Shown here: positions 37,876 to 52,442 of the stretch, one piece after another
How the letters are laid out: each line of letters begins with the position of its first letter
Numbering within the stretch: the stretch's first letter is position 1
Origin: Prosthecobacter sp.
Lineage (GTDB): Bacteria; Verrucomicrobiota; Verrucomicrobiia; Verrucomicrobiales; Verrucomicrobiaceae
Assembly: GCF_014879935.1 (NCBI RefSeq)
Contig: NZ_JACSRD010000127.1
Location: 1 to 64,000, forward strand
Direction of reading: 5' to 3'
DNA length: 64,000 nt
Translations under genes and position numbers: made by a program
The notes under the pieces: generated by a model
The model's input: the letters and a program-made list of their open reading frames with translations, nothing else
Databases searched by the model: none
Told to the model about the DNA's origin: nothing

Positions 37876-40800
37876 TCACGGTGGCGTCGTCACCTTCAGG
37901 TGGACGAAACGTCTTCCATTGCTGCCAGCCGGGATCGTCGCCCTCACCTGCTGCGTGGTTCCATTGTTAGAGAGCACTTGTTCGGTCACTCCCGCAGTGC
38001 TCCAAGTGGTTCCAGGCAAGGCGTCACTCCATTCCACCGTGAATTGCGTCCCAACGTCCGCCTCATTTTTACTTCGGGTGTAGGTGAACTCGAGGTTGCC
38101 CCCATTGCGAGCCAAGCTGGCAGGCAGGCCGCTCGGCCGTGTGGGGTCGAGGGTGCAGCCCCTCTCGATCAGATTAGCGAGCCCATCATGATCCGGATCT
38201 GCATTGTCTGCCGCGTTTCCAGTGTTGCTGGTCGTCCCAAAGTATTGAAGCCTCCAGTATTGGCCGAGCGACATGAGCGTGGCGCTCAAGTTGATGTCAA
38301 AGGAGGGCTCGTCCGCGTCGTTTGACTCGATATGAAGCACCGCGCTTTCGGGTGCGCCACTGAGCGGAGTGTAGCGAACGGTGAAGGTCAGGCTCTGTCC
38401 CGGATGGATCGCTGCAAATGAAACCGGCGCTTCCAACAAGGTGAACTGCGAGGCGTTCACTCCGTCGATGTAGGGTCCAGGAATGACGTTGCCAATCAAA
38501 AGATCAGCGCCGCCAGTGTTTCGGATGGTGATATGCCGGTCCATGCCCTGCCCGACGACTGCGGTGCCAAACTGCACACTGGAAGCGCCGTCCTCGAGGG
38601 AGGTTGCAAAGGCATCTTCCACCGCGATCTCCGGGGCAGGCGTGACAAAGCTCAAGATCTCACCCTCGCTGAAGAGGTCGTAATTTGTCTCTTCAGCATA
38701 CGCTAGAATGTAGTATCGCGTTCCTGGTGTCAGATTATTCGCGGTGGCGTTGATGCTTTGAATCGAAGTGCCTGAAATAATTAGCTGCTCCGGAGCAATG
38801 TACATCCAGCTCACCTGATCCGTGCTGATGAAGAAGGCTGGTGTGGCCGTGCCTCCATTCGCGTCCACTGTTCCATGCAAAATCGCCGTGGTGCTGGTGA
38901 CATTCGATTCAGGCAGCGTGACCACAGTCGGTGCCGGGATGTTGTTGTAGCGCACGACCACGGCGGAATAGTGGCCGTCGGCACCGCGGACATTGCCAGC
39001 GGCGACGATCTGGCCGTCGGGCTGGAGTTTGACGGAAGCGATGTAAGCATCCGAACTGTTGAAATTCGTCGTCAACAGGCCGTCGCCATCAAATGCCGGG
39101 TCGGGAGTGCCGTCCGTCAGAAAGCGTGCCATCGCAAACTGGTTGAAACCGCCCACCGTGGCAGTTCCAGCAATGAGGATGTGACCATCAACTCCAATGA
39201 CGATGTCATTGCCCTCCGTGGCGCTGCCAGCGCCGAACGTTCTGCGTGCGATGCCACTGGCGCCGAAACTGGTGTCCACAGATCCGTTGGGGAGATACCG
39301 GACCATTTCAAAGGAGCAATCCGTTCCGGCGCTACGGCCGCCGACAATAAACCTGCCATCGCTTTGCATCGCCATGGCCCACGCACAGCCGTTTTCGCCA
39401 CCAGCGTTGGTATTGAGCACCTTTCCAGCAGTGCCAAAACTGGCATCCAGTGTGCCATTGGGAAGATACCGCGCCACCACGTGGCCGCCCCCCGCACCTT
39501 CGCGATCACCGGACACCAGAATCATGCCATCGCTCAGGATGATGACGTTGTTGGCAGTCTCGGTCCCGCCAAAATCTGTGGTCACCTTCCCGGCCAGACC
39601 AAATGTGCTGTCGATGGCACCTGTGTTCAAATAGCGCGCAATAACGAAGTCCGTGCCGTTGCCGCCGCACACCACAATCTTGCCATCGCTCTGCACAGCG
39701 ACACCAATCGCCTCATCACTTCCGCCCCCAAAATCCGTGGTGACTTTGCCATCTGAGTCGAATGTGCCGTCCAGAACACCACTGGTGGAATAGCGCAACA
39801 GCACGGCGTCACCAGCCTGACTGCCAACGACCAGTGGCCGCCCGCTAGCGTCGGCGCAGATGCCGAGCGCATAGGCTCCCTCAGTGGTGGCAGTGCCGGT
39901 GCTGGTGTAATCGACACTGCCATCCGTATTCCGCCGGAGAAGCAGCACGTTGTTTGCGTTTCCACCGAAATTGGAGGTCGTCACAAACACCACCTTGCCG
40001 TCATCCTGGAGAAACATGTCGGCATCGTTACCCTCCGTGCCACTGTGGGCATGGCTGGCGATGCCACTGCTGCCAAAGTTCTCATCCGGGCTGCCAATCG
40101 CAGGAAGGGTCGATGTGACGACCACATTGAACTGCGTTTCTTTCTGGTAGAACGCCACATTGAGACTTCCAGGGAGAACGGCATGGTTCACATCAGACAA
40201 CGCAGCGAACGACACCCTGCCTAAGTACTCCTGCCCTGCAACCAACGTCCCGGCAGGCACTTGATAGCCAAGAGAATTTGTCACCGGGGAGGTGGAAGCA
40301 AACACATCATGCGTGGTGATGCCGTCGATACCACTGTTGATCGTGTCATCGGCATGGCTGCCGTAGCCGGCGAAGGTGTTGGTCGCGACGGTCAAGATCG
40401 CATTCGGGGAGATGTAATACTTGCCTCCCAACCACACACCACCGCCCAGCGTCACTTGGGGTGTGTTCGGGTAAAGGTCACCTGTCAGTGAGAGGGGCAC
40501 ACTGACACCTCCCACCGTGACGGTGTAGGTTCCACTGCCAAAGCGTGCGTCCAGATCCGCCAGCGAGGGGGAGCCCCAATCATTCGCATTCGGGCTGCCA
40601 TAACGCCACATGGCGTCCTGACTGCTGTAGAGCAGGGCACCTCCATTGTGAGTCGCAGGCGCATCGCTCAGGTGGAATGACTGGAAGGGACCGGTCACGA
40701 CAGGAGCGGCACCGAGCGCATCAATGCCCGCGCCCTCGACATTCACGGAAAACCCGTAAGCCCCCCCATAATCCGGTGTGGAACCGGGAGGTTCCGGGTT

Positions 40801-43800
40801 TACTCCGACACTGGTCGCGGAAGTCTGTGTGTAGCTGATGCTCTTGCCAACCACCACCCTTTCAATCGTGTAATTGCCGACCGTGCTGAAGGTCATGACG
40901 TTGCCCAAGCCGGTGACATGGTAGTCACCCAGCTCCGCCTGTGCCTGCACATAATAGAGCGTTCCAGGGGTGAGGCCGGCAAGGGTCGTCCTGGTGATGC
41001 CTTGGGGAGTCGTTCCCGAGATCAGTGTTTGATCCGCGCCAGCCAGACTCCAGTTCACCTGATCCGTGCTGATGCGGAAACTCGGCACCACAACGTTTCC
41101 GTTGGCATTCACAGTACCATTCAGCGTGGCAGAGGTGGAAGTGACATCCGTGGCCCCCTGCGTGGTGACAGTGGGGGCAGAGATGTTGTTGTAGCGTACG
41201 ACCACGGCGGAGTAATGACCGTCCGCGCCGCGCACATTGCCAGCGGCAACGATCTTGCCATCCGCCTGGAGTTTGATGGAGGCGATATAGGCGTCCGTGC
41301 TGTTGAAGTTCGTTGTCAACAGGCCGTCGCCGTCAAAGGAGGTGTCGAGAGTGCCGTCTGGCAGATAGCGGGCCATGGCGAACTGACTGAAGCCACCGAC
41401 GGTCGCGGTTCCCGCGATGACGATGCGTCCGTCCGGACCGATGGCAATGTCATTGCCCTCAGTGAAGCTGTTGAGACCAAAAGTGGTGCGCACAAAGCCG
41501 TTGCTGCCAAAACTGGTGTCCACCGTGCCGTTGGCGAGGTAGCGCACCATGGCAAAGCAGATGTTTGCGTTCACATCACGTCCGCCAACGATGAGCTTGC
41601 CATCCTCTTGCAGCGCCATGGCACAAGCGCAGCCGTTTTCCCCGCCGATGCTTGGCGTGACCACTTTGCCCGCCGTGCCAAAGGTGCTGTCGAGCATGCC
41701 GTTGGTGAGATAGCGTGCCACCACGAAGCCGGAGGTGCCGCCGGGCTCGCAATCGCCTGAGACGAGGATTTTGCCATCGCTGAGCACGATGATGTTGTTC
41801 GCCGTCTCAGAACCTCCGAAATCGGTCGTGACTTTGCCAGCGATGCCAAAAGTAGTGTCGAGTGCGCCCGTGCTCAAATAGCGGGCGATGATGAAATCGG
41901 CACCATTTGTGCCGCAGACGACGATCTTGCCGTCGCCTTGCACTGCGACCCCAATGGCCTCGTCGCTGACGCCGCCGAAATCAGTCACGACCTTGCCATC
42001 CGTGTCAAAAGTGGCGTCCAGCACCCCGCTGGTGGTATAGCGCAGCAGAACCGCATTCCCACTTTCAGCACCAACAACACACAGTTTGCCGCCGGCATCC
42101 ACGCAAACCCCGAGTGAATACACGCTTTGAGTGACGCTGGTGCCGAGATGACTGAAACTGGCGCTGCCATCCGTGTTGCGGCGGAGCAGCACGGCGTATT
42201 CGGAGGAGCCGCCGAAGTTTGAAGTCGTGGTGATCACCGTCCTGCCATCCGGTTGAAGGATCATATCCAGGTCATTCCCCTCGGTGCCATTGACAATGTT
42301 TCCTGTGTTGACCACGCCTCCTGTTCCATACCCCACATCCAGGCTGCCGATCGCTGGGTAGGCACGACTGACAATCACCTCATACGTCTGCGTGGTCACC
42401 CCATCCGGCGCTGTACAGACCACAGAAATCGCCGAGTTATCCCCCAGACCCAGCTGAATAGCCCCGCTGGCGGTTCCGGAGGCCACGGTGACCCCGTTCA
42501 CCTTCACCGTTGCCCCGCTCGCGGCCACCGTAGGGGTGATGGTGGTGCTGGTAGTCGTGTAGGGCGCCATCACCAGATACGTTGTGTTGGCGCCAAAGGG
42601 CACCGTGAACGCCCCCGCGCTGGCGGTGAGGTTTGAGAGATTCGCATTGTTGCTCAACGCTGTGTTGAATGTGCCCGCTGCCGTAGCGGTGCCTGCCGCG
42701 TTGCTGGCCGTGAGACGGTAGTGGTATGTGGTCCCAGGCGTGAGGCCCGTGAGGTTCGCGCTCACGTTCTGCGCCGTGGTTCCGTTGTTCGGGGAAAGCG
42801 TCACACTGGCCGTGCTGCCGTAGCTAGCGGTCAGGCCATATTCGAACTGCGCAGTTGTCGGTGCGCCTTGGGGATTGACGGTGCCGTTGAGCGTGACGCT
42901 GGAGGGGGTAACGCTGCTGATGGCAGCGAGTGTGACAACCGGCGCGTCCACGATGCGGAGTACCACCTCATTGCCAGAGCCTCCCGTGTAGGAAATCTGC
43001 GCTTTATAAGTGCCGCCGCCCACTCCCACATTCGTCAGCGTGTGGATGCTGTCCTGCGCCTTGCCATTGAAGGTGCCCGTGACGGCGTCCGTGCCATCGT
43101 TCTGCACGATGGTGAATACCTGGCCGATGGATGGCGCGAAGCGCAGGGTGATGTTGAGGAAGGCACTGGCTAGATCCACCGTCCCGGAAACATTGATCTG
43201 ATCCGAGGCCGGGCCGCTGACCAGGTCCACATTGTAGCTCACGCCGGAGGCCAGCGTGACATTGCCGGTGGTGGTAAGCGTTGAGGCGCTGGAGCCGCCG
43301 AGATCAATCACAGAACCGCTGGTGGCTGTAAAGGTCCCGACTGTCCCGTTCCCCGTGATCTTTCCCCCTTGCAGGGCCACCAGCAGGCCGCCGAGATTCG
43401 AGCTGGCGAGCGAGAGCGTTGCCGCCGGATTGATGCGCACCCCGTTGCTGATGGTGTGCGAGCCGTTGCCAAGGTTCAGCGTGGCCGCATTCGTGCCATC
43501 ACCCACCACCAGCCCGCCCGCGCCGGGACTGATGGCAGTGCCGGTGGCGTTCACTGTGCCCTTGTTGAAGACGATGGTCTTCGATCCCGCGCCCGTGCGA
43601 ATGTTGGTAAAGTTCAGCGTGCCTCCATTGATGTTCACCGTGCCCGTGCTCGTAGCATTGTCAGCGATGGCCAAATCCCGTCCCGTGATGGTGCCGCCGT
43701 TGGCATTCAGCGTGCCCGTCCCCGTTGCGTTGGTGCCAAAATAGAGATCCTTGGTGGTTCCCAGATTCACACTCCCTCCGGAGACCGTGAGCGTGCCCGT

Positions 43801-46023
43801 ACCATTGAAGCCCACATGCGAGTGGCCGTTGATCATCAGCGTGCCCGCGCTCAGCGTGTAGGTGCCCGTGCCGCCAGACTGCTCGCCAACGAACATGCCG
43901 CCCGTGGCGGTGCTCGTGCCTCCGCTTTGGATCATGGTGCCGTTGGCTGCCCGGCCCACCGAGAGGATGCCGCCCACGTTCACCGTGCCGGCGCTCTGGG
44001 TGAAGGTGCCGCTGGCCGCAAAGCCCACGCCGAGGTTGCTCGTCGTCGTCACCGTGCCCGTGCCGGAGAGTTGATACAGCCCCGTGGCACCGGCCACGGT
44101 GCCCAGCCGCACAAACGCCACCGAAACATCCCCCCCCGTTTGATTGAACACACCCTGCCCCGCGTAGCCGACATGCAACGTTTGCGTGGAGTTCAGGGCT
44201 CCGGCAGACATCTGGTAGCTGCCGTAGGCCCCGGCCTGGTCGGCCAGTTCGATGGCATTTCCGTTCGCGGTGAAAGTGCCCCCATTTTGAAGAAAACTGC
44301 CCGTTCCGGCATATCCGATCACCGTGGAGTTCGTGACCGTGAGAGTGGAGGCAGTCAGGATGTAGGTTCCACGCCCAGTGGTCGAAAAACCGAGATACAG
44401 ATTCTGGCCGGAATTTGACCCGCCGGTCTGATAAAACGTACCAGCGCCGGCGTGCCCCACCGACTGCGTGCCTGAGGAGGAGACAGTGCCCGCGGAGACG
44501 TTCAGGGTTCCCTGGCTGCCGCCAAACTCACCCACATACAAAGCGGGCGGCGAGAAAGCGCCGCCGGAGAAGTTCATCACGCCCACACCGCTGGTGCCCA
44601 CGCTGGTCCAGTTTGGATTGGTGATGTTGTTGCCGCCGTTATTGTAAATCTCTGCTGCGCCCGCAGTCGGGGCCACGGAGAGATTCGTGTTCACGGACCC
44701 GGGTTGGTTCGTCGTCGTCGTGGTGAAGCCCTCGTAGCGGGCGATGGCGAAGTCGCGATTGTTTCCAGATCGGTAATACCCAGCCAGCAGGATTTTGCCA
44801 TCGTTCTGCAACGCCATGCCATAGGCTTCTTCGCTTGTGCTGCCAAAGTCGGTCGTTTTTGTGCCGCCGCTGCCGAAGCTGCTGTCCAGTGCGCCACTGG
44901 CGTTGTAACGCGCCAGCGCAAAATCGTAGTTCCCACCAGTTGAGTAGGAGTATCCCTCCGCCAGAATCCGACCATCGCTCATGACCAAGACACCACGGTA
45001 GCCATCATGACTCGTGCCACTGACATTCGTGGTCACTTTGCCACCGTTGCCGAATGTGGTGTCCACCGTGCCGTTCGTGTTAAACCGCGCCAGCGCAGAC
45101 CCGCTCTCGGCTAGAAATGGATTGATGACGTATTCTCCCGCCACCACTATCCTTCCGTCATTCTGGAGCACCAGACCATTGCAAAGGTCGTCCTCTGACC
45201 CAACTGAAAGCGTCATTTTTCCGCCGCTGCCAAAGGTGGGGTCGAGCAAGCCGTCCGAGTCGTAGCGCACTAGCGCGAAGTCCTTGTTGCCAGACGTCCA
45301 GGATTGCCCGGCCACGACAATTTTGCCGTCATTCTGCACAGCGACACAGGTGCCCTCATCGTCACCCGTCCCGATTGCGGTTGTAACCTTGCCTCCAACG
45401 CCGAATGTGGTGTCAAGCGAGCCATCGGCATTATAGCGGGCCACGGCGATGTCATAGTTGCTACCCCCGGTATACGCTGATCCGACCACCAAGATCTTGC
45501 CATCACGTTGCAGGGCTGCGGCGTTGCCATAGTTCGAACTGTTGCCAATATCAGTTACAACCTTGCCCCCATTGCCAAAGCTGGCATCCAAAGTCCCGTT
45601 CACATTAAATCGGATCAAGGCGAAGTCTTCGAAGGTGCCTGATCCGGAACCCGAATTGGTAAAGCCAGCGACGAGAATTCGACCATCGCTTTGGACGACG
45701 ACAGATTTAGCGCTTTCGTCGCTCGTGCCGATGGTCATGGTGACTTTGCCTCCGGTTCCGAAGCTGCTATCCAGAGTTCCGTTGCTGGTGTACCGGGTCA
45801 GGGCAAAATCCCAGTTGCTCCCGTTGTAGGTTTCGCCAGCCACCACCACCTTGCCATCCGCCTGTATCATCACACTCAGGCCCGTCTCATTGCTGCTGCC
45901 GATGGATGTCGTCACCTTCCCCCCAGAGCCAAAGGTAGTATCTAAATCTCCCGGCGCGGCCGAAGCGGCGGCTGCCAGGATGAGGGCGGTAAGCATGAGG
46001 ACGAGACTGGGGGCGGATTTCAT
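37876..46023 (-). CDS. Giant exported delta-60 repeat protein
   Basis: A protein of about 2715 residues from ATG 46023 (signal peptide KSAPSLVLMLTALILAAAASA). In order, with residues numbered from an upstream start at 46050: delta-60 propeller-type repeats at 30-445 (units such as DLDTTFGSGGKVTT...ADGKVVVAGE...FALTRY); a Gly/Thr/Asn-rich beta-solenoid-like region at 455-1030 (units such as GAGTFYQTGGSNSGQNLYLG), as in autotransporter-associated repeats; a fibronectin-like domain near 1040-1130; a cadherin-like sandwich near 1135-1225; a delta-60 block at 1228-1610 plus sandwich; a unique module at 1727-1975; a second, very similar delta-60 block at 1977-2370 plus sandwich; an ASPM/choice-of-anchor-like domain near 2470-2590; and a tail with DPDHDGLANLIE. 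Surface location is likely; function is unknown. Confidence 0.9.
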   Translation of the reverse strand: MKSAPSLVLMLTALILAAAASAAPGDLDTTFGSGGKVTTSIGSSNETGLSVMIQADGKVVVAGETYNGSNWDFALTRYTSNGTLDSSFGTGGKVTMTIGTSDESAKSVVVQSDGRILVAGFTNSGSGSGTFEDFALIRFNVNGTLDASFGNGGKVVTDIGNSSNYGNAAALQRDGKILVVGSAYTGGSNYDIAVARYNADGSLDTTFGVGGKVTTAIGTGDDEGTCVAVQNDGKIVVAGQSWTSGNKDFALVRYDSDGLLDPTFGSGGKMTLSVGSEDDLCNGLVLQNDGRIVVAGEYVINPFLAESGSALARFNTNGTVDTTFGNGGKVTTNVSGTSHDGYRGVLVMSDGRILAEGYSYSTGGNYDFALARYNASGALDSSFGSGGTKTTDFGSTSEEAYGMALQNDGKILLAGYYRSGNNRDFAIARYEGFTTTTTNQPGSVNTNLSVAPTAGAAEIYNNGGNNITNPNWTSVGTSGVGVMNFSGGAFSPPALYVGEFGGSQGTLNVSAGTVSSSGTQSVGHAGAGTFYQTGGSNSGQNLYLGFSTTGRGTYILTASTLTVTNSTVIGYAGTGSFLQNGGTFTANGNAIELADQAGAYGSYQMSAGALNSTQTLHVGYAGQGVFNQTGGDVSVAFVRLGTVAGATGLYQLSGTGTVTTTSNLGVGFAASGTFTQSAGTVNVGGILSVGRAANGTMIQSGGTSTATGGMFVGEQSGGTGTYTLSAGTLMINGHSHVGFNGTGTLTVSGGSVNLGTTKDLYFGTNATGTGTLNANGGTITGRDLAIADNATSTGTVNINGGTLNFTNIRTGAGSKTIVFNKGTVNATGTAISPGAGGLVVGDGTNAATLNLGNGSHTISNGVRINPAATLSLASSNLGGLLVALQGGKITGNGTVGTFTATSGSVIDLGGSSASTLTTTGNVTLASGVSYNVDLVSGPASDQINVSGTVDLASAFLNITLRFAPSIGQVFTIVQNDGTDAVTGTFNGKAQDSIHTLTNVGVGGGTYKAQISYTGGSGNEVVLRIVDAPVVTLAAISSVTPSSVTLNGTVNPQGAPTTAQFEYGLTASYGSTASVTLSPNNGTTAQNVSANLTGLTPGTTYHYRLTASNAAGTATAAGTFNTALSNNANLSNLTASAGAFTVPFGANTTYLVMAPYTTTSTTITPTVAASGATVKVNGVTVASGTASGAIQLGLGDNSAISVVCTAPDGVTTQTYEVIVSRAYPAIGSLDVGYGTGGVVNTGNIVNGTEGNDLDMILQPDGRTVITTTSNFGGSSEYAVLLRRNTDGSASFSHLGTSVTQSVYSLGVCVDAGGKLCVVGAESGNAVLLRYTTSGVLDATFDTDGKVVTDFGGVSDEAIGVAVQGDGKIVVCGTNGADFIIARYLSTGALDTTFGIAGKVTTDFGGSETANNIIVLSDGKILVSGDCEPGGTSGFVVARYLTNGMLDSTFGTAGKVVTPSIGGENGCACAMALQEDGKLIVGGRDVNANICFAMVRYLANGTVDTSFGSNGFVRTTFGLNSFTEGNDIAIGPDGRIVIAGTATVGGFSQFAMARYLPDGTLDTSFDGDGLLTTNFNSTDAYIASIKLQADGKIVAAGNVRGADGHYSAVVVRYNNISAPTVTTQGATDVTSTSATLNGTVNANGNVVVPSFRISTDQVNWSLAGADQTLISGTTPQGITRTTLAGLTPGTLYYVQAQAELGDYHVTGLGNVMTFSTVGNYTIERVVVGKSISYTQTSATSVGVNPEPPGSTPDYGGAYGFSVNVEGAGIDALGAAPVVTGPFQSFHLSDAPATHNGGALLYSSQDAMWRYGSPNANDWGSPSLADLDARFGSGTYTVTVGGVSVPLSLTGDLYPNTPQVTLGGGVWLGGKYYISPNAILTVATNTFAGYGSHADDTINSGIDGITTHDVFASTSPVTNSLGYQVPAGTLVAGQEYLGRVSFAALSDVNHAVLPGSLNVAFYQKETQFNVVVTSTLPAIGSPDENFGSSGIASHAHSGTEGNDADMFLQDDGKVVFVTTSNFGGNANNVLLLRRNTDGSVDYTSTGTATTEGAYALGICADASGRPLVVGSQAGDAVLLRYSTSGVLDGTFDSDGKVTTDFGGGSDEAIGVAVQSDGKIVVCGGNGTDFVIARYLNTGAIDSTFGLAGKVTTDFGGTETANNVIILSDGMILVSGDREGAGGGHVVARYLPNGTLDASFGTAGKVLNTNAGGENGCAWAMAMQSDGRFIVGGRSAGTDCSFEMVRYLPNGSVDTSFGASGIARRTFGAGSATEGNDIVIGVDGHILIAGTATVGGFNQFAMARFLTDGTPDPAFDGDGLLTTNFNSSDAYIASVKLQPDGQIVAAGNVRGADGHYSAVVVRYNNIPAPTVVTLPESNVTSTTAILHGTVDANGGTATPAFFISTDQVSWMYIAPEQLIISGTSIQSINATANNLTPGTRYYILAYAEETNYDLFSEGEILSFVTPAPEIAVEDAFATSLEDGASSVQFGTAVVGQGMDRHITIRNTGGADLLIGNVIPGPYIDGVNASQFTLLEAPVSFAAIHPGQSLTFTVRYTPLSGAPESAVLHIESNDADEPSFDINLSATLMSLGQYWRLQYFGTTSNTGNAADNADPDHDGLANLIERGCTLDPTRPSGLPASLARNGGNLEFTYTRSKNEADVGTQFTVEWSDALPGTTWSTAGVTEQVLSNNGTTQQVRATIPAGSNGRRFVHLKVTTPP
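38680..40120 (-). repeat. Internal module duplication, copy B
   Basis: This part of the giant gene encodes a delta-60 block and sandwich domain that match copy A (40868-42365) almost segment for segment. Shared segments include TEGND, SGVLD.TFD.DGKV.TDFGG.SDEAIGVAVQ, GKVTTDFGG.ETANN and ADGHYSAVVVRYNNI. The DNA is alignable by eye over long runs, e.g. 38941-39090 against 41181-41330. Confidence 0.85.
40868..42365 (-). repeat. Internal module duplication, copy A
   Basis: First copy (in reading order) of the delta-60 plus sandwich module. It is separated from copy B by a unique module of about 250 residues (40120-40868). Copy A begins at YPAIGSLDVGYGTGG and copy B at LPAIGSPDENFGSSG, showing the same junction. 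Confidence 0.85.
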
Positions 46024-46197
46024 GATGGGTGAAGTGGAGAAGAGCATCACAGGCGGGTGGAAATGGATTCAGCCAAGCCGTGGAATGAGGCCTTTGTAGA
46101 GCGTCCATGGCTTGTGGGCATCGTCTGCCCTACGGCACGGCCTGGATGGAGCCGGGCGAATGCTGCCGGGGTCTGGCGGCTTTGGAAATACGTCGTT

Positions 46198-47013
46198 TTA
46201 CGCATGCGGACCGCTGGCAGAGGGTGGGGTGGGACCGGGATTGGGCAGAAGGCAGGCCGGATCGAGAAGACGACGCGCCTCGGCCGCCGCTGCCGCGCGG
46301 TTTTCGACGCGGAGCTTGGCGAGGATGTTTTCCACGTGCTTCGCGATGGTGCGTGGCTGCGCGCCCAGAATGATGGCGATCTCGCCGTTGCGTTTGCCTT
46401 CAGACAGCCAGTGCAGCACCTCACACTCCCGGCGGGTCAGCCCGTGGTTCCGCCAGGAGCGATAGTCCATCTCCGGCGCGCCCCGCAGGCTGCTGAAGAG
46501 ACGCGCGTTCTCAAAGGCACGCACAAAGTGCGGCTGCAGCATCTGCATGAGCTGTTTCTCCCCGGCGGTGAAGCCGGTTTCGCGGTTCACCGCCACGCCC
46601 AAAATGTGATCTGGCACCGGCAGGATGATGCCGAGCTGATCCCGCACCCCGAAATGCCTCACCACCTCCTGATACAGGCCCGTGGCCTGAAACTGGGGCT
46701 GCGAGAGGAAATCGCCGATGGTGAACACCGTCTCGCTGCCGCCAGCATCCAGGTGGGCGATGCCCGGATGCTCATGGCAGTGCGCCTGCCACCGTGCCAT
46801 GAACTCCTCCCGCGTGAAGGGAATCGGCCGGTCAAAGACGTTCAGCGCCGCTCCCGTCTTCAGATCGATCTGGTCAAAGGAGATGTAAGTCGCCGGCAGC
46901 AGCTCGGCGATGATCCCCATCAGATGCCGTGGGAAGTTGCCCACGTCCTTCACCTCATAGAGGCGGTGCAGGGTCTCCAAAACACGGGCGGTCGGGAATG
47001 AGGTGTCAGCCAT
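46198..47013 (-). CDS. LuxR-type helix-turn-helix regulator
   Basis: A 271-residue transcription regulator from ATG 47013. The first 190 residues are a GAF-like sensor domain (LETLHRLYEVKDVGNFPRHLMGIIAELLPATYISFDQID, HFGVRDQLGIILPVPDHILGVAVNRE). The C-terminal LuxR DNA-binding domain reads GLTRRECEVLHWLSEGKRNGEIAIILGAQPRTIAKHVENILAKL, close to the family consensus. The last 20 residues are a Pro-rich tail. The ligand is unknown. It lies 174 bases upstream of the giant delta-60 gene on the same strand and is a candidate regulator of it. An in-frame extension to 47142 looks untranslated. Confidence 0.92.
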   Translation of the reverse strand: MADTSFPTARVLETLHRLYEVKDVGNFPRHLMGIIAELLPATYISFDQIDLKTGAALNVFDRPIPFTREEFMARWQAHCHEHPGIAHLDAGGSETVFTIGDFLSQPQFQATGLYQEVVRHFGVRDQLGIILPVPDHILGVAVNRETGFTAGEKQLMQMLQPHFVRAFENARLFSSLRGAPEMDYRSWRNHGLTRRECEVLHWLSEGKRNGEIAIILGAQPRTIAKHVENILAKLRVENRAAAAAEARRLLDPACLLPNPGPTPPSASGPHA

Positions 47014-47152
47014 GATCACGGCGGCAGGAACGGGGAGAGAATGACAAACTAACTTAAATGTACCAGCATAATGTTGACCATGATTGTTCGGACGCGCTTG
47101 TGGCACTGCCCTCCAATGCCGGGGTTCCTTGAATTCTGGCAATGGTGGTGTC

Positions 47153-47761
47153 TCACGGCCGCTGCAGTGCGGTGAGGAGTTCGTTGAACTTGTCCTGCAC
47201 CTGGCTGAGCTCGGTGGCGGTGGGTGGGTCGCTGAAGGTCAGGCTCAGTGGAGAGACGCCGGCGGGATTCAGCGCGGTGGCGGCCATGGCGGCGTCCAGC
47301 GTGGACTGGCTGACCTCGCCGGGCGAGCCGTCGGCACCGTTGTTGCCGTCGTTGCCCCGGGGGATGCTGAAGGTGAAGCGCACGTAGCTGCCATCAAAGC
47401 TCACGCTGGCGCTGGCAGGCTCCCCAGGATCGAGCGTGGTCACATCATCCACGATGGCCTGTGCAAAGGGCGGCCCCTGCGGCCCTTCGGGACCGGCGGC
47501 TCCATCACTGCCATTCTGTCCGGGCGGTCCTTCGGCCCCGTTTTGCCCTCTGGGCAGGGCAAAGGTGAAGTGCAGCGTGTGGTCCACCACACTGACCTGC
47601 GCGAGGGCGGGATCTCCGGGATTGACGGTGCTGACGCCGTCCACCTGCGCGTCGGTGACGGTGATGATGGCATCAATGAGCGCCTTGAGGCTGGTGAGCT
47701 GCGAACGCATCACCGCGCTGGAGAGATCACTGGCTTCGGCGGGCTGGGCGGGGTCGAACAT
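47153..47761 (-). CDS. Collagen-like protein, possible tail-fibre or surface protein
   Basis: A 202-residue protein from ATG 47761 with two short Gly-x-y blocks (GQNGAEGPPGQNGSDGAAG and GNDGNNGADGSPG). Each follows a related module: VNPGDPALAQVSVVDHTLHFTFALPRG and LDPGEPASASVSFDGSYVRFTFSIPRG. That internal duplication of about 55 residues is common in phage tail fibres and bacterial collagen-like proteins. A GTG at 47881, directly after the previous stop, would add 40 low-complexity residues; I prefer the ATG. It follows the conserved protein gene at 47882 on the same strand, and the function is probably linked. Confidence 0.7.
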   Translation of the reverse strand: MFDPAQPAEASDLSSAVMRSQLTSLKALIDAIITVTDAQVDGVSTVNPGDPALAQVSVVDHTLHFTFALPRGQNGAEGPPGQNGSDGAAGPEGPQGPPFAQAIVDDVTTLDPGEPASASVSFDGSYVRFTFSIPRGNDGNNGADGSPGEVSQSTLDAAMAATALNPAGVSPLSLTFSDPPTATELSQVQDKFNELLTALQRP

Positions 47762-47881
47762 GAGACTTTGAGACTTGGGAGATTCAGCGAAGGGCGGAGG
47801 GTTGGAGGCGGTGCTCGGTTGCTGGGGGGCGGTTTGGACTCTTGGCCCTTTGCCCTTGGCTCTTTGCCCTCCGCCCTGCAC

Positions 47882-48688
47882 TTACAGGCCGGTCAGTGTC
47901 CACTGCTGCCAGTCGCTCCAGGTGCCGAAGTCCTCGCCTTTGTAGAGGTAGCGCAGGCGCACCTTGATGATGACGCTCTGCCCGGCGGGCGGCAGCCAGT
48001 TCAGGGTGTAGTTGGGGCGCAGATCGATGTCGCTCTTGATGCCGGCCGCTCCCAGGTCGAACTCCATCCTCACCCCGTCGAACTGGTTCTTCCTCCACAG
48101 CACCTCCATCTTCCCGTCGGTGGTGGAACGCAGGTCAAAGTCCGGTGCCGTGCTGCCCGGTGGGGGCGGGGCGGCGGCCACGGTGCCTTCCACGCCCAGA
48201 TCCTCGCCGATGGCGGGGTTGTAACCGGTGGCGGTCTTGATCTTGTCGCCGATGTAGGTGAACACGCGCTTCATGCAGCCGTTGGCCACGGCGGCGGGAG
48301 CCCCGGCAGGCGGGGTGAAGCCCTGCCAGGCCACGTTTCCGACCACATTGTCGCCATAGAGCGCCACCTCGATGCATTGGTAGCAGGCGGAGCTGGCTGG
48401 GGCCAGGGCGCCCCGGTAGGTGTCCAGGCCGTAGATGGCGGTGTCCACATCCAGCAGGATGGCCGTCACGTCACCGGCATCCAGGGCCAGGGTGGTGGCG
48501 TGGGTGGGCAGCTTGATCTTGAAGTTGCGCAACCAGACGATCTGGTCGCCGATGCGGACGGGGAAATAGACTTGATGTCTCATGGTGGAACGTTTCTTGG
48601 ATGTGAGGTGGGTGGTGAGCGGGGGTAAAACGGTGTCGTAGTGAAGGCCGGAATCCCAGGTTTTCCCGAACTGGTCCCAGGAGGGCAT
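47882..48688 (-). CDS. Hypothetical protein, probable tail-fibre or surface partner
   Basis: A 268-residue protein I recognise only as a type seen beside collagen-like genes in related bacteria. It opens with a Trp-rich segment (MPSWDQFGKTWDSGLHYDTVLPPLTTH), followed by strand-rich sequence (HQVYFPVRIGDQIVWLRNFKIKLP, DAGDVTAILLDVDTAIYGLD) and a C-terminal Trp-rich part (LPPAGQSVIIKVRLRYLYKGEDFGTWSDWQQWTL) resembling a small beta-sandwich. It has no signal peptide. The start at 48688 is fixed by a perfect ribosome site. The start directly follows the stop of the heptad-repeat frame. Confidence 0.7.
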   Translation of the reverse strand: MPSWDQFGKTWDSGLHYDTVLPPLTTHLTSKKRSTMRHQVYFPVRIGDQIVWLRNFKIKLPTHATTLALDAGDVTAILLDVDTAIYGLDTYRGALAPASSACYQCIEVALYGDNVVGNVAWQGFTPPAGAPAAVANGCMKRVFTYIGDKIKTATGYNPAIGEDLGVEGTVAAAPPPPGSTAPDFDLRSTTDGKMEVLWRKNQFDGVRMEFDLGAAGIKSDIDLRPNYTLNWLPPAGQSVIIKVRLRYLYKGEDFGTWSDWQQWTLTGL

Positions 48689-49168
48689 CTAGCGGGACCT
48701 CCTGAGGTGGGGCGTATCCGGGCTGTGAGGAGCGATGACTTCGGCGCGGCGGCCATGCGGCTTGGAAAGGAGAGCGCCAAAACCGCCCGTCTGCGGCATC
48801 CTGATCTCAATGGGGGCCCTCTCTTCCGCCAAGTGACGCATCCCGTTGTAAAGGTGAGCCATCACCTTCCGAAGGTGATGACTCACTCTGGCAGGGTGAG
48901 CGCTCACTCCGGGGTGGTGAGGTCTCACTTTCCCAAGGTGATCCCTCCCTGCGACAAGGTGAGCCGGGAAATCGAGAAGGTGATGCCTCCCTTTTCCGAC
49001 GTGGTGCATCACCTTGAAAAGTTGGGCCATCACTCTGGCGAGGTGATGGGGTCCGACGCCGGTCTTTCCTGTCTCTTCACGACGCCTCCTGTGCAGGCCG
49101 CCAGCCAACGCCCGCGTGATGTTGCCGCCGGTCGCTGCCGCTGAAAGGGAGATCGGTGACGCGTTCAT
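48689..49168 (-). CDS. Possible His-rich heptad-repeat protein (coding status uncertain)
   Basis: An open frame of 159 codons on the minus strand. Its middle is made of seven-residue units such as HHLRKVM, AHLYNGM and DHLGKVR, translated from a 21-bp tandem repeat. Its TAG stop is immediately before the ATG at 48688, and the ribosome site for that gene lies inside it, an arrangement typical of operon genes. Against it: the 21-bp period keeps frames open on both strands (a frame of similar length reads 48641-49144 on the plus strand), there is no clear ribosome site at 49168, and the sequence is low in complexity. Confidence 0.35.
   Translation of the reverse strand: MNASPISLSAAATGGNITRALAGGLHRRRREETGKTGVGPHHLARVMAQLFKVMHHVGKGRHHLLDFPAHLVAGRDHLGKVRPHHPGVSAHPARVSHHLRKVMAHLYNGMRHLAEERAPIEIRMPQTGGFGALLSKPHGRRAEVIAPHSPDTPHLRRSR
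48697..48703 (-). promoter_or_regulatory. Consensus ribosome binding site (AGGAGGT)
   Basis: On the minus strand AGGAGGT lies 8 bases before the ATG at 48688. This is unusual here because most genes in the window lack a clear Shine-Dalgarno sequence. It decides the start of the 268-residue protein and suggests efficient translation independent of the upstream frame. Confidence 0.85.
48830..49060. repeat. Array of eleven degenerate 21-bp repeats, several near-palindromic
   Basis: Eleven in-register units of exactly 21 bases run from 48830 to 49060. The best unit (48851-48871) contains AAGGTGA-GCCA-TCACCTT, a perfect 7-bp inverted repeat. Several others keep TGA-N4-TCA (48872, 48893, 48914) or a similar GGTG...TCACC form (48998, 49019); units at 48935-48997 have lost the right arm. 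The array lies between the divergent kinase gene and the tail-fibre-like genes. It could be an iteron-like binding array or encode a heptad-repeat protein. Confidence 0.9.
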
Positions 49169-49292: not shown

Positions 49293-52200
49293 ATGGACGA
49301 TCCCGACGCCACCGTACCCATGTTCAAGTCCACGCCGCAGGCTGGCGCAGGCGGTTTGTCTCCTCAGGAGGTGGGAAACCTCATGGCGGTGGGTGCGGAG
49401 GCCTTCGAGTCCCGGCGCACCTCCCGTCCGCGTGCATGGAATCCGCCGAGCACCGAGGAACTGCAGAAGATGCTGCCGCAGTATGAGATCAGCGGCTTCA
49501 TCGCCCGCGGCGGCATGGGCGCGGTGTACAAGGGGGTGCAGCGCGCGCTGGATCGTACGGTGGCCATCAAAATCCTGCCGCCCGAGATCGTGGATGACGG
49601 CGAGGCGAACTACGCGCAGCGCTTCAAGCAGGAGGCGCGCGCGATGGCGAAGTTCAAACATCCGGGCATCGTCACGGTGTACGAGGCGGGGGAGGCGGAA
49701 TTGCAGGGTCAAGACAGTCAAGGAGCTGCGCGTCAAGAGAGTCAAGGTGGGAAGCTGCTCTACTTTGTGATGGAGTTCATCGAGGGCACGGACGTGGCGC
49801 AACTCGTCGCCACGCACGGCCAGCTTCCACCGCAGGAGGCGATCCGTATCACCACCGCGGTGTGTGACGCGCTGGCCTATGCGCACGCTCGTGGCGTGGT
49901 GCATCGGGACATCAAGCCCTCGAACATCATGATCGATGCCGACGGCCAGGTGAAAGTGGCGGACTTTGGCCTCGCGAAGGTGACCGCGCACGACAGTAGT
50001 GGCATCACGCGCAGCAGTGTCACGATGGGCACGCCTGATTTTGTGGCACCGGAGGCCATGCTCGCCGGGACGCTGGTGGACCAGCGCGCGGACATCTATG
50101 CGGTGGGCGTGATGCTGTATCAAATGCTCACCGGCCACATCCCGCGCGGGCGCTTCTCCCCCATCAGCGCGGTGGTGCCGCAGAGCGATCCGAAGCTCGA
50201 CGCCATCGTGGACAAGGCGATGCAGACGGACCGCGAGAAGCGCTACAGCAGCGCGGTGGAGATGAAGACGGAGGTGGAGGCTGTAGCCGCGCCTGCAAAG
50301 GCGTGGTCAGGAGATGCTTCGTCTGACCACCGGCTTGCGCCGGCAGCTACAAGCAACGGCGTGTCCGCGGCTGCAAAGACACGGCGGAAGATGTCGATGC
50401 TGGTCGGTGCGGCGGCGGTGATAGTGCTCGGTGCGGGGGCATTCTGGATGACGCGGAAGGATGAAGAAGGTAGGGCGGCTGGTCCCGCAGCAGCCGCGAG
50501 TGCCCCGTCGGCGGCGCTTGCAGGAGCAAGCGCCCTACCCAGCGCCACCGTCTCCATCCCCGGCCTGCCGGACCTGCCGCCGCTTGCGATCCCCGCTGGT
50601 GAGCCGGGGCTGGTGAAAGAGATCACACTCGCGCCGCAGCCGTTTCTGCACCGCATCGCGCTGCTGCCGGACTCGCGGAGGATGCTGGCCTTCAAAGGAA
50701 GCAGGGTGGAACTGCTCGACCTCCAGACCGAGGGCACGGTGTGGTCCGTGGATGCGGGCGGGGACGCCGAAGCGGTGGCCGTCAGCCGGGATGGCAGCCG
50801 CTTTGCGCACTATCGCTACGCGCTGAATCGGAACGCCAAGGACTTTCGACCCGAAGATCAGAAGGCCGTGATCACCCTGCGTGCGACGAAGGACGGCTCC
50901 GTGATCCAGAGCTGGACGGTCCCTGTCGGGCTCATGAGTGTGCCGGGCGGCTCACTGGCGATGGCACCCTTCGGGAGACGTCTCGTGGCGAGGGTGGGAG
51001 CAGACAAGAGCGGCAAGGGGCCCACGACGTTCGTGGCCTTGGATGAAGGGCACGCGGAGCCTGTCGCCCGCTGGTCGGTGGCGGAGCATAATGGGCACAT
51101 GATCTTTTGCGTGGACGAGGATCATTTCCTCTCGACCGGCAACGGTCCGGCCATGCTGCTGACCGTGGCCCAACCCGGAAAGGCTGAGGTTTTCGCGCAA
51201 ACGGGGGCGGAACTTAATAGTGCGATCAGCCCGGATGGGCTCCAGCTTGTTACCTGCGATCGCAGCGCCGGGATGGCCGTATGGGATACCTCGACACGCC
51301 AGCGCCTGAGGAATCTGGAAGGGGCGCCGCAAAAGGCCGATCTCGTCGCCATTTCCCGCTCAGGTGCCGTCGTGATGATGGGGGATGCGGTGCTGCGGGA
51401 TAAGAACAAAGCCACGCCGCAGGCTTACTCCGCGCCCTTTGGCATCTGGGACAGCCACACGGGCAAGAGGCTCGCCACGCTCTCTCCACCGAGGGCCGGG
51501 CAGACCTACAATGGGTCCAGCTCCGCCACCATCGCCGACAACAGTACCTTTTTCGCCACGGTCGCGCGGTACGATCCACCTCGGGAGGGAGGAGGCGCGA
51601 ACGTGGTGCAGATATGGCGGCTGCCAGCACCGCTCAAACCTGACAAAGCCAAGACCTCCGCCGCCACCGGCCTCCGATGGCCTCACATGCCGACCGAGGA
51701 GGACAGGAAGCTGGCCTTCACGAACACGCTGGGGATGAAATTCGTGCCGGTGCCGGGGACGGAGGTGCTTTTCTGCATTCATGAGACGCGGAAGCAGGAT
51801 TACGCGGCCTACGCGGCGGCGGTGCCGAAGGTGGATGCGCTGTGGCGGCAGCCAGCGTTTTATCGCGACACGCCTGTGAGTCCGACGCCTGACCATCCGG
51901 TGGCATGGGTGAACCTGGGGGACTGTCAGGGCTTTTGTGCTTGGCTGAGCACCAAGGAGGGGCGGAAATACCGCCTGCCCTCCGATTACGAGTGGAGCTG
52001 CGCCGTGGGCATCAGTGAGCGGGAGGACCGGGAGGCACTGCCGACGGTGAGAGGTGCGGTGTTCATATCCGTGTTCGCCTGGGGCACGCAGTGGCCGCCG
52101 CCGAAGGGCGCAGGCAATCTGGGTGACGAGACGCTGAAGCGCGTCACCGGCCAGGAACCGGTGATAACCGGCTATGATGATGGCTTTGCCACCACCGCGC

Positions 52201-52442
52201 CGGTGATGAGCTTCCCACCCAATGCGCTGGGCATCCATGACCTGGCCGGAAACGTGTGGGAGTTCTGCTCGGACTGGTACGATTCCTTGCAACAGAAGAT
52301 CACCGTCCGTGGCAGCAGCTACAACAATGGCAATCCAGAGCCCAACGCCGCATTCGTGGCCGCCGTGATTCGCAACGGGCAGCCGCAGGATCGCGGCGCC
52401 ATCAACACTGGCTTCCGCATCGTGGCGGAGCGGCTGCCGTGA
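49293..52442 (+). CDS. Ser/Thr protein kinase fused to formylglycine-enzyme-like domain
   Basis: A membrane protein of about 1049 residues from ATG 49293 (MDDPDATVPMFK). A Hanks-type kinase at about 63-330 has the P-loop ARGGMGAVYKG, VAIK, HRDIKPSN, DFG and APE motifs, so it should be active. A single membrane helix (LVGAAAVIVLGAGAFWM) lies near 365-385. The next 400 residues or so are outside the membrane and look propeller-like (LLPDSRRMLAFKGSRVELLDL, VAVSRDGSRFAHY). The C-terminal part (about 808-1049) is a SUMF1/FGE-sulfatase-type domain (MKFVPVPGTEVLFCIHETR, HPVAWVNLGDCQGFCAWL, DLAGNVWEFCSDWY, NTGFRIVAE), probably a binding domain here. Three in-frame repeat insertions interrupt the linkers. 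A sigma factor gene follows 112 bases downstream. Confidence 0.93.
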   Translation: MDDPDATVPMFKSTPQAGAGGLSPQEVGNLMAVGAEAFESRRTSRPRAWNPPSTEELQKMLPQYEISGFIARGGMGAVYKGVQRALDRTVAIKILPPEIVDDGEANYAQRFKQEARAMAKFKHPGIVTVYEAGEAELQGQDSQGAARQESQGGKLLYFVMEFIEGTDVAQLVATHGQLPPQEAIRITTAVCDALAYAHARGVVHRDIKPSNIMIDADGQVKVADFGLAKVTAHDSSGITRSSVTMGTPDFVAPEAMLAGTLVDQRADIYAVGVMLYQMLTGHIPRGRFSPISAVVPQSDPKLDAIVDKAMQTDREKRYSSAVEMKTEVEAVAAPAKAWSGDASSDHRLAPAATSNGVSAAAKTRRKMSMLVGAAAVIVLGAGAFWMTRKDEEGRAAGPAAAASAPSAALAGASALPSATVSIPGLPDLPPLAIPAGEPGLVKEITLAPQPFLHRIALLPDSRRMLAFKGSRVELLDLQTEGTVWSVDAGGDAEAVAVSRDGSRFAHYRYALNRNAKDFRPEDQKAVITLRATKDGSVIQSWTVPVGLMSVPGGSLAMAPFGRRLVARVGADKSGKGPTTFVALDEGHAEPVARWSVAEHNGHMIFCVDEDHFLSTGNGPAMLLTVAQPGKAEVFAQTGAELNSAISPDGLQLVTCDRSAGMAVWDTSTRQRLRNLEGAPQKADLVAISRSGAVVMMGDAVLRDKNKATPQAYSAPFGIWDSHTGKRLATLSPPRAGQTYNGSSSATIADNSTFFATVARYDPPREGGGANVVQIWRLPAPLKPDKAKTSAATGLRWPHMPTEEDRKLAFTNTLGMKFVPVPGTEVLFCIHETRKQDYAAYAAAVPKVDALWRQPAFYRDTPVSPTPDHPVAWVNLGDCQGFCAWLSTKEGRKYRLPSDYEWSCAVGISEREDREALPTVRGAVFISVFAWGTQWPPPKGAGNLGDETLKRVTGQEPVITGYDDGFATTAPVMSFPPNALGIHDLAGNVWEFCSDWYDSLQQKITVRGSSYNNGNPEPNAAFVAAVIRNGQPQDRGAINTGFRIVAERLP
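49708..49747 (+). repeat. In-frame direct-repeat insertion inside kinase domain
   Basis: A 16-bp unit (GTCAAGACAGTCAAGG) at 49708-49723 recurs with one change at 49732-49747; the period is 24 bases (8 codons). It encodes a Gln/Ser-rich insert (GQDSQGAARQESQGG) between the strand ending TVYEAGE and the hinge strand LLYFVMEF, where kinases normally have a short turn. Confidence 0.75.
50283..50350 (+). repeat. Palindromic element in kinase coding sequence (1)
   Basis: A 68-bp imperfect palindrome. The ends are GTAGC (50283) and GCTAC (50350); the core arms GTGGTCAG (50303-50310) and CTGACCAC (50323-50330) are perfect with a 12-base loop, and the intermediate arms match with few gaps. It is read through in frame in the juxtamembrane linker (VAAPAKAWSGDASSDHRLAP). 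It looks like a small REP/MITE-type element. Confidence 0.8.
50469..50539 (+). repeat. Palindromic element in kinase coding sequence (2)
   Basis: A 71-bp element bounded by GGTAGGGCG (50469-50477) and its exact reverse complement CGCCCTACC (50531-50539). Inside are two sub-hairpins: GCGGCTG/CAGCCGC (50475-50481, 50491-50497) and GCGCTTGC-AGGA-GCAAGCGC (50514-50533). It is translated as an Ala-rich stretch just after the membrane helix. Confidence 0.85.

Follow-up and report, generated by a model that had tools for sequence, protein, structure and literature searches.

What is a row of eleven 21-bp units, many of them palindromic, doing between two divergent sets of genes? This arrangement lies in a contig of Prosthecobacter sp., within the 64,000 nucleotides that we analysed (the window). 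The original prediction, which was made from the letters alone, read it as an iteron-like or cooperative binding array and noted that a coding reading competes, because 21 bp is also seven codons. We think it somewhat probable that the units are operator-like sites in helical phase and that they control the two-gene cassette next to them. The features that matter are as follows.

46198 to 47142, minus strand: gene for a LuxR-type (GerE) regulator, downstream of gene2 and on the same strand
47153 to 47761, minus strand: gene2, encoding a collagen-like protein (MFDPAQPAEASDLSSAVMRSQL...); homology with its relatives begins at the ATG that ends at 47761
47882 to 48688, minus strand: gene1, a 268-amino-acid ORF with a leader (MPSWDQFGKTWDSG) that has repeated WD motifs (the "WDSG" leader), then helices, and an FN3-like fold at the C-terminus
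48833 to 49063, no strand: the 21-bp array, 11 units with the dyad GTGA-N4-TCAC, from register, lag-21, and symmetry tests
49293 to 52442, plus strand: gene for a Ser/Thr protein kinase with a C-terminal FGE-sulfatase domain, divergent from the cassette; its ORF opens at 49116

As predicted, the array is flanked by divergent genes: gene1 starts 144 bp away on the minus strand, and the kinase gene probably starts at 49293, 229 bp away on the plus strand. Gene1 has no family match in Pfam, NCBIfam, or PHROGs. In its AlphaFold model (pLDDT 80, pTM 0.55), the N-terminal half is helical, and the C-terminal part aligns with FN3 domains in Foldseek. The ORF of gene2 reaches 47881, but the likely start is the ATG at 47761 (the stop is at 47153), and its Pfam match to the collagen-like family is just under the cut-off. 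In general, these resources barely see the proteins of the cassette, whether collagen-like or FN3-like. Upstream of the likely start of gene2, the junction with gene1 contains a short 14/21-bp tandem repeat (47834–47877; CTTGGCCCTTTGCC), and relatives have 7-bp satellites at the same position. A very large ORF of 2724 amino acids (37876–46050), on the same strand as the cassette and past the LuxR gene, contains repeated "LDTTFGSGGKV...DGKILVAG" units and autotransporter-like stretches.

The structure of the array itself is as the original prediction described it. The units begin at 48833, 48854, and so on to 49043, the last one ends at 49063, and the 21-bp register is exact. GGTGA occurs in phase at 48853, 48874, 48895, 48916, 48937, 48958, 48979, and 49042. 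At 48853 the inverted repeat GGTGA-GCCA-TCACC is perfect, and this unit, taken with its flanks, is the best of the array (AAGGTGA-GCCA-TCACCTT, 48851–48868). Four successive units (48854–48928) keep TGA-N4-TCA, and others keep it in part. With 116 of 210 positions matching at lag 21, the array gives the strongest such signal in the 64 kb (the second-best place has 89), and none of 500 shuffles that preserved local composition by position modulo 3 reached this score (maximum 98). Dyad pairing is 71%, versus 51% in column-permuted versions (p = 0.005, or p = 0.01 with other settings). Tandem Repeats Finder did not detect the array because the copies are too divergent. We found no sigma-70-type promoter near it.

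A search with the exact two-dyad pattern found no second copy of the unit in the organism's own genome and nothing comparable in 68 genomes of the family or 388 of the phylum. Pattern matches in viral contigs gave no clear relative. We read two of them: one (L057, 6480–6760, from a viral collection) has an AT-rich 21-bp array (CTATCACCTTTTTACAGTGAA) before a gene and may be a true iteron set that is unrelated to the cassette, and the other (L067) has a 21-bp repeat that looks coding. Further arrays did appear once the unit was dropped and only the period was kept. The clue came when we looked, under loose criteria, for GGTGA recurring every 21 bp. This led to a relative (L025) in which a 21-bp array with a very different sequence immediately precedes a gene that has a similar leader (TWDTPGLTWDSG); the partner of that gene resembles gene2.

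Gene1 and gene2 form a two-gene cassette that is present in multiple copies in the Verrucomicrobiaceae. Gene2 matches 13 times within its own genome, and 30 of 67 genomes of the family contain matches; beyond the family it is almost absent (1 other genome of the 115 that we sampled across the phylum). Ten of the loci (L246, L252, L254, L275, L276, L280, L282, L283, L316, and L320) are from several metagenome-assembled genomes (MiH and ME isolates) that bear the title "Akkermansia muciniphila" and carry this Verrucomicrobiaceae cassette, and the species label looks wrong.

Scanning genome contigs with a gene2 alignment gave 80 loci; upstream sequence of 2 kb or more was available for 51, and 47 of these have an array. 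Searching with gene1 added 20 loci, of which 19 have upstream DNA, and every one of the 19 bears an array just before gene1. In the organism's own genome, seven more cassette loci have arrays (L225–L228, L333, L334, and L335), and some other copies of gene2, mostly partial, show none. Across the class, the period is 21, 22, or 41–44 bp, mostly with a site every 20–22 bp, and the array lies either before gene1 or before gene2 (between the two genes). Upstream of gene2, over 2.6 kb per locus (154 kb across all loci), we counted 37, 8, 14, 39, and 7 array peaks at lags of 21, 22, 41, 42, and 44 bp, versus 6, 0, 0, 3, and 0 in the rest of these loci; 7-bp satellites account for a few of the upstream peaks, as they too give a signal at lag 21. 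As background, 400 kb of one genome has such peaks at only about seven places. The median size of an array is 10 units and 246 bp, and the sequence of the unit mostly differs from locus to locus. Dyad symmetry is significant (p < 0.05) in 28 of 83 arrays, and about two thirds are below significance. In three arrays with asymmetric units (L335, L336, and L347), the orientation of the unit flips part-way through. Separately, perfect or near-perfect 7-bp satellites (TTCGTCA, GATCCGC, or CTCTGTG) lie beside cassette genes, sometimes along with a 21-bp array (L274 5837–5998, L287 525–600, L290 4220–4340, and L304 3823–3960).

The orthologous locus of the window (L259) has a gene1 that is 76% identical and the same kinase neighbor. 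The best units of its 21-bp array are AAGGTA-N4-TACCTT, versus AAGGTGA-N4-TCACCTT in the window, and the two arrays have diverged. In contrast, an array with 12 copies of GGTA-N4-TACC is conserved at five loci (L334, L338, L340, L343, and L351) from four genomes and at least three genera. Its units are 21 bp apart except for a single 22-bp step mid-array, and the alignment has no indel columns over 274 bp. Identity is 81–92%, as compared to 72–85% at fourfold sites of gene1. The palindrome arms are invariant at 83% of positions, versus 66% for the spacers (Fisher p = 0.004). There are no compensatory columns; rather, the arm sequence GGTA/TACC is itself retained. This strict test of conservation concerns one array family, and the window's own array lies outside it. 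Overall, the class of arrays is real, it is linked to the cassette, and it is constrained in at least one lineage.

Are these arrays sites on DNA, or do they have some other origin? Consider first the competing reading in the original prediction, a heptad-repeat protein encoded on one strand. The window array does have an open frame on both strands, and the minus-strand ORF through it stops exactly at the start of gene1 (TAG-ATG). The heptad ORF at L025 also ends just before gene1, and for 65 arrays with periods of 21 or 42 bp, open frames are slightly more common in the sense direction than in antisense (59 versus 48). However, any 21-bp repeat that lacks a stop codon remains open, periods of 22, 41, 43, and 44 bp break the frame, and among arrays of other periods, the sense strand lacks an open frame in half. 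In the L334-type array, the best-kept positions are those of the palindrome arms. No codon-position signal was seen: a bias at p < 0.05 occurs in 3 of 63 arrays, which is the chance level, and p = 0.45 for the window. As the frame is not kept across the class and the variation has no third-position bias, we rejected a heptad-repeat gene, and we consider a coding role to be very improbable. Alternatively, the arrays could act as RNA, with serial hairpins in the cassette mRNA, in its leader or between the cistrons, that control stability or translation. Transcription does probably run through the arrays, which in some loci separate gene1 from gene2, and many of the dyads could fold as hairpins, some of them long (L251). 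But over 64 arrays, the folding energy of the sense strand is no different from that of the antisense strand (Wilcoxon p = 0.64), and mismatches in the dyads are symmetric between strands (53 G-T versus 57 A-C), so there is no preference for G-U pairs on one strand. Given also the lack of compensatory changes in the conserved array and of any match in Rfam, a structured RNA element is not supported, and we judge this reading to be quite unlikely.

Another possibility is that slippage and exchange at cassette junctions produce a satellite-like minisatellite whose period is a by-product and which has no function. Units differ between loci even if the neighboring genes are 75–90% identical, some arrays look freshly homogenized (L228, L226, and L261), and gene2 can also be preceded by simple repeats of 7 or 8 bp, all of which would fit. 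On the other hand, slippage does not readily explain the conserved L334 family, with no indels and with more conservation than fourfold sites across genera; nor the enrichment of dyads over the class; nor why so many unrelated units have periods that are confined to about 21 bp and its double. We consider this explanation unlikely, though less so than hairpins. The arrays might also be the ends of a mobile cassette and serve in recombination or transposition. In a family with 41-bp units, blocks of array, gene1, and gene2 that are 80–94% identical are found at different genomic places (L266 1676–4086, L284 3979–6783, L289 430–3298, and L294 4243–6464). The homology runs from the array to the stop codon of gene2, which raises the possibility that the whole cassette moves together, and its modules are mosaic. 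In many loci, though, the array is internal, between gene1 and gene2. Also, a non-exhaustive search revealed no association of the arrays with a recombinase gene, and because units differ between cassettes, the arrays cannot pair with each other. A role as mobile ends thus seems improbable.

We return to the phased operator array. Palindromic sites in helical phase are present in the window (p = 0.005 for the dyad) and across the class (28 of 83 arrays, with periods of 21, 22, or 42 bp). From the lack of indels, the retention of the arms, the enrichment of dyads, and the flipped units, we infer binding of a protein to double-stranded DNA. Copies of a DNA-binding protein with two-fold symmetry would line up along a single face of the helix, at adjacent sites two turns apart, and would then cooperatively repress or activate the promoter of the cassette. 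Of the original prediction, the cooperative binding array is what we favor over coding. An iteron in the replication sense is not, as these arrays are chromosomal, multicopy, and tied to the cassette, and no initiator was found among six neighboring ORFs.

Which protein might bind? In many cassettes, the obvious candidate would be a Cro/C1-type (XRE) helix-turn-helix gene, which lies directly upstream of the array and on the same strand in about 30 loci. Eight of nine such genes that we tested match HTH_3 or HTH_31 in Pfam (one of these is below the cut-offs). A model built from the cassette HTH genes, and so biased towards them, has no hits in 400 kb of background DNA. Neither in the window nor at L259 does an XRE gene adjoin the array. 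At L305 and L313, DNA with the XRE gene is 90.6% identical up to the array; this is followed by unrelated arrays and gene1, and then by a similar gene2. Two more pairs are comparable (L263/L264 and L250/L324), and across the three pairs, the XRE regions are 87–91% identical and the arrays are unrelated. More broadly, the similarity of arrays tracks gene1 and not the XRE gene: with few exceptions, arrays are alike only if their gene1 is closely related. Therefore, the XRE protein is not the specific binder everywhere, and we rejected one cognate XRE protein per array as a general rule. Because XRE, array, gene1, and gene2 modules combine differently in such pairs, the cassette is mosaic. For the window, the LuxR-type gene is a possible, putative binder of the array, but it is a weaker candidate, as it is not conserved: it was not seen at the L259 orthologue.

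Several known systems resemble these arrays in part. Cro/C1-type regulators bind cooperatively to arrays of operators, as at lambda OR or with the controller proteins of restriction-modification systems. These are also rows of short palindromes in regulatory DNA, at a spacing of about two helical turns, and often lie by an HTH_3 gene. The cassette arrays differ in having far more sites and in that most cassettes have another unit, with near-identical regulators beside unrelated arrays; the co-evolution of regulator and site that is expected for XRE operators was not found. Iterons of plasmid and phage origins are direct repeats of about 20–22 bp in helical phase, like the cassette arrays, but the latter are chromosomal and accompany many copies of a collagen-like gene cassette, and by Pfam no replication initiator gene is among the six ORFs near the window array (kinase, LuxR, collagen-like, and no-match proteins). 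CRISPR arrays have repeats of about 23–50 bp, unique spacers, and cas genes nearby; here, the units are 21 bp, there are no separate spacers of CRISPR size, and no Cas domain was found among the neighboring ORFs tested. TIGR-Tas arrays consist of tandem units with a 36-nt guide unit (PMC12045711), and their repeats are likewise similar within a locus and dissimilar between loci, some are palindromic, and some arrays have a double unit. However, the unit of the cassette arrays is 21 or 42 bp, and we rejected this system because the Nop domain (PF01798) was detected in 4 archaeal controls and in 0 of 40 family genomes. REP/BIME elements (PMC3733652 for the class) are also short palindromes in intergenic DNA, but REPs share one sequence family across a genome, whereas cassette loci mostly have a private unit and a 21-bp phase. 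A limited literature search, without most subscription journals, found no earlier description of such an array or cassette.

More speculatively, the arrays might be interchangeable DNA addresses that allow surface-protein cassettes to be expressed separately, for example one at a time, and that are exchanged between cassettes. Each mosaic cassette would then comprise an HTH gene, a phased array, a WDSG/FN3 protein, and a collagen-like protein, with many per genome and mostly private arrays. We regard this scheme as doubtful. If the operator reading is true, these arrays would be an undescribed class of cis-regulatory DNA, with many long, helically phased arrays of sites per genome, all tied to one multicopy protein family. 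Heptad-repeat ORFs that are annotated in such regions are probably not genes. The combination of fixed geometry and changing sequence is unusual, and it would make a clean test case for the origin of new protein-DNA specificities or of new arrays.
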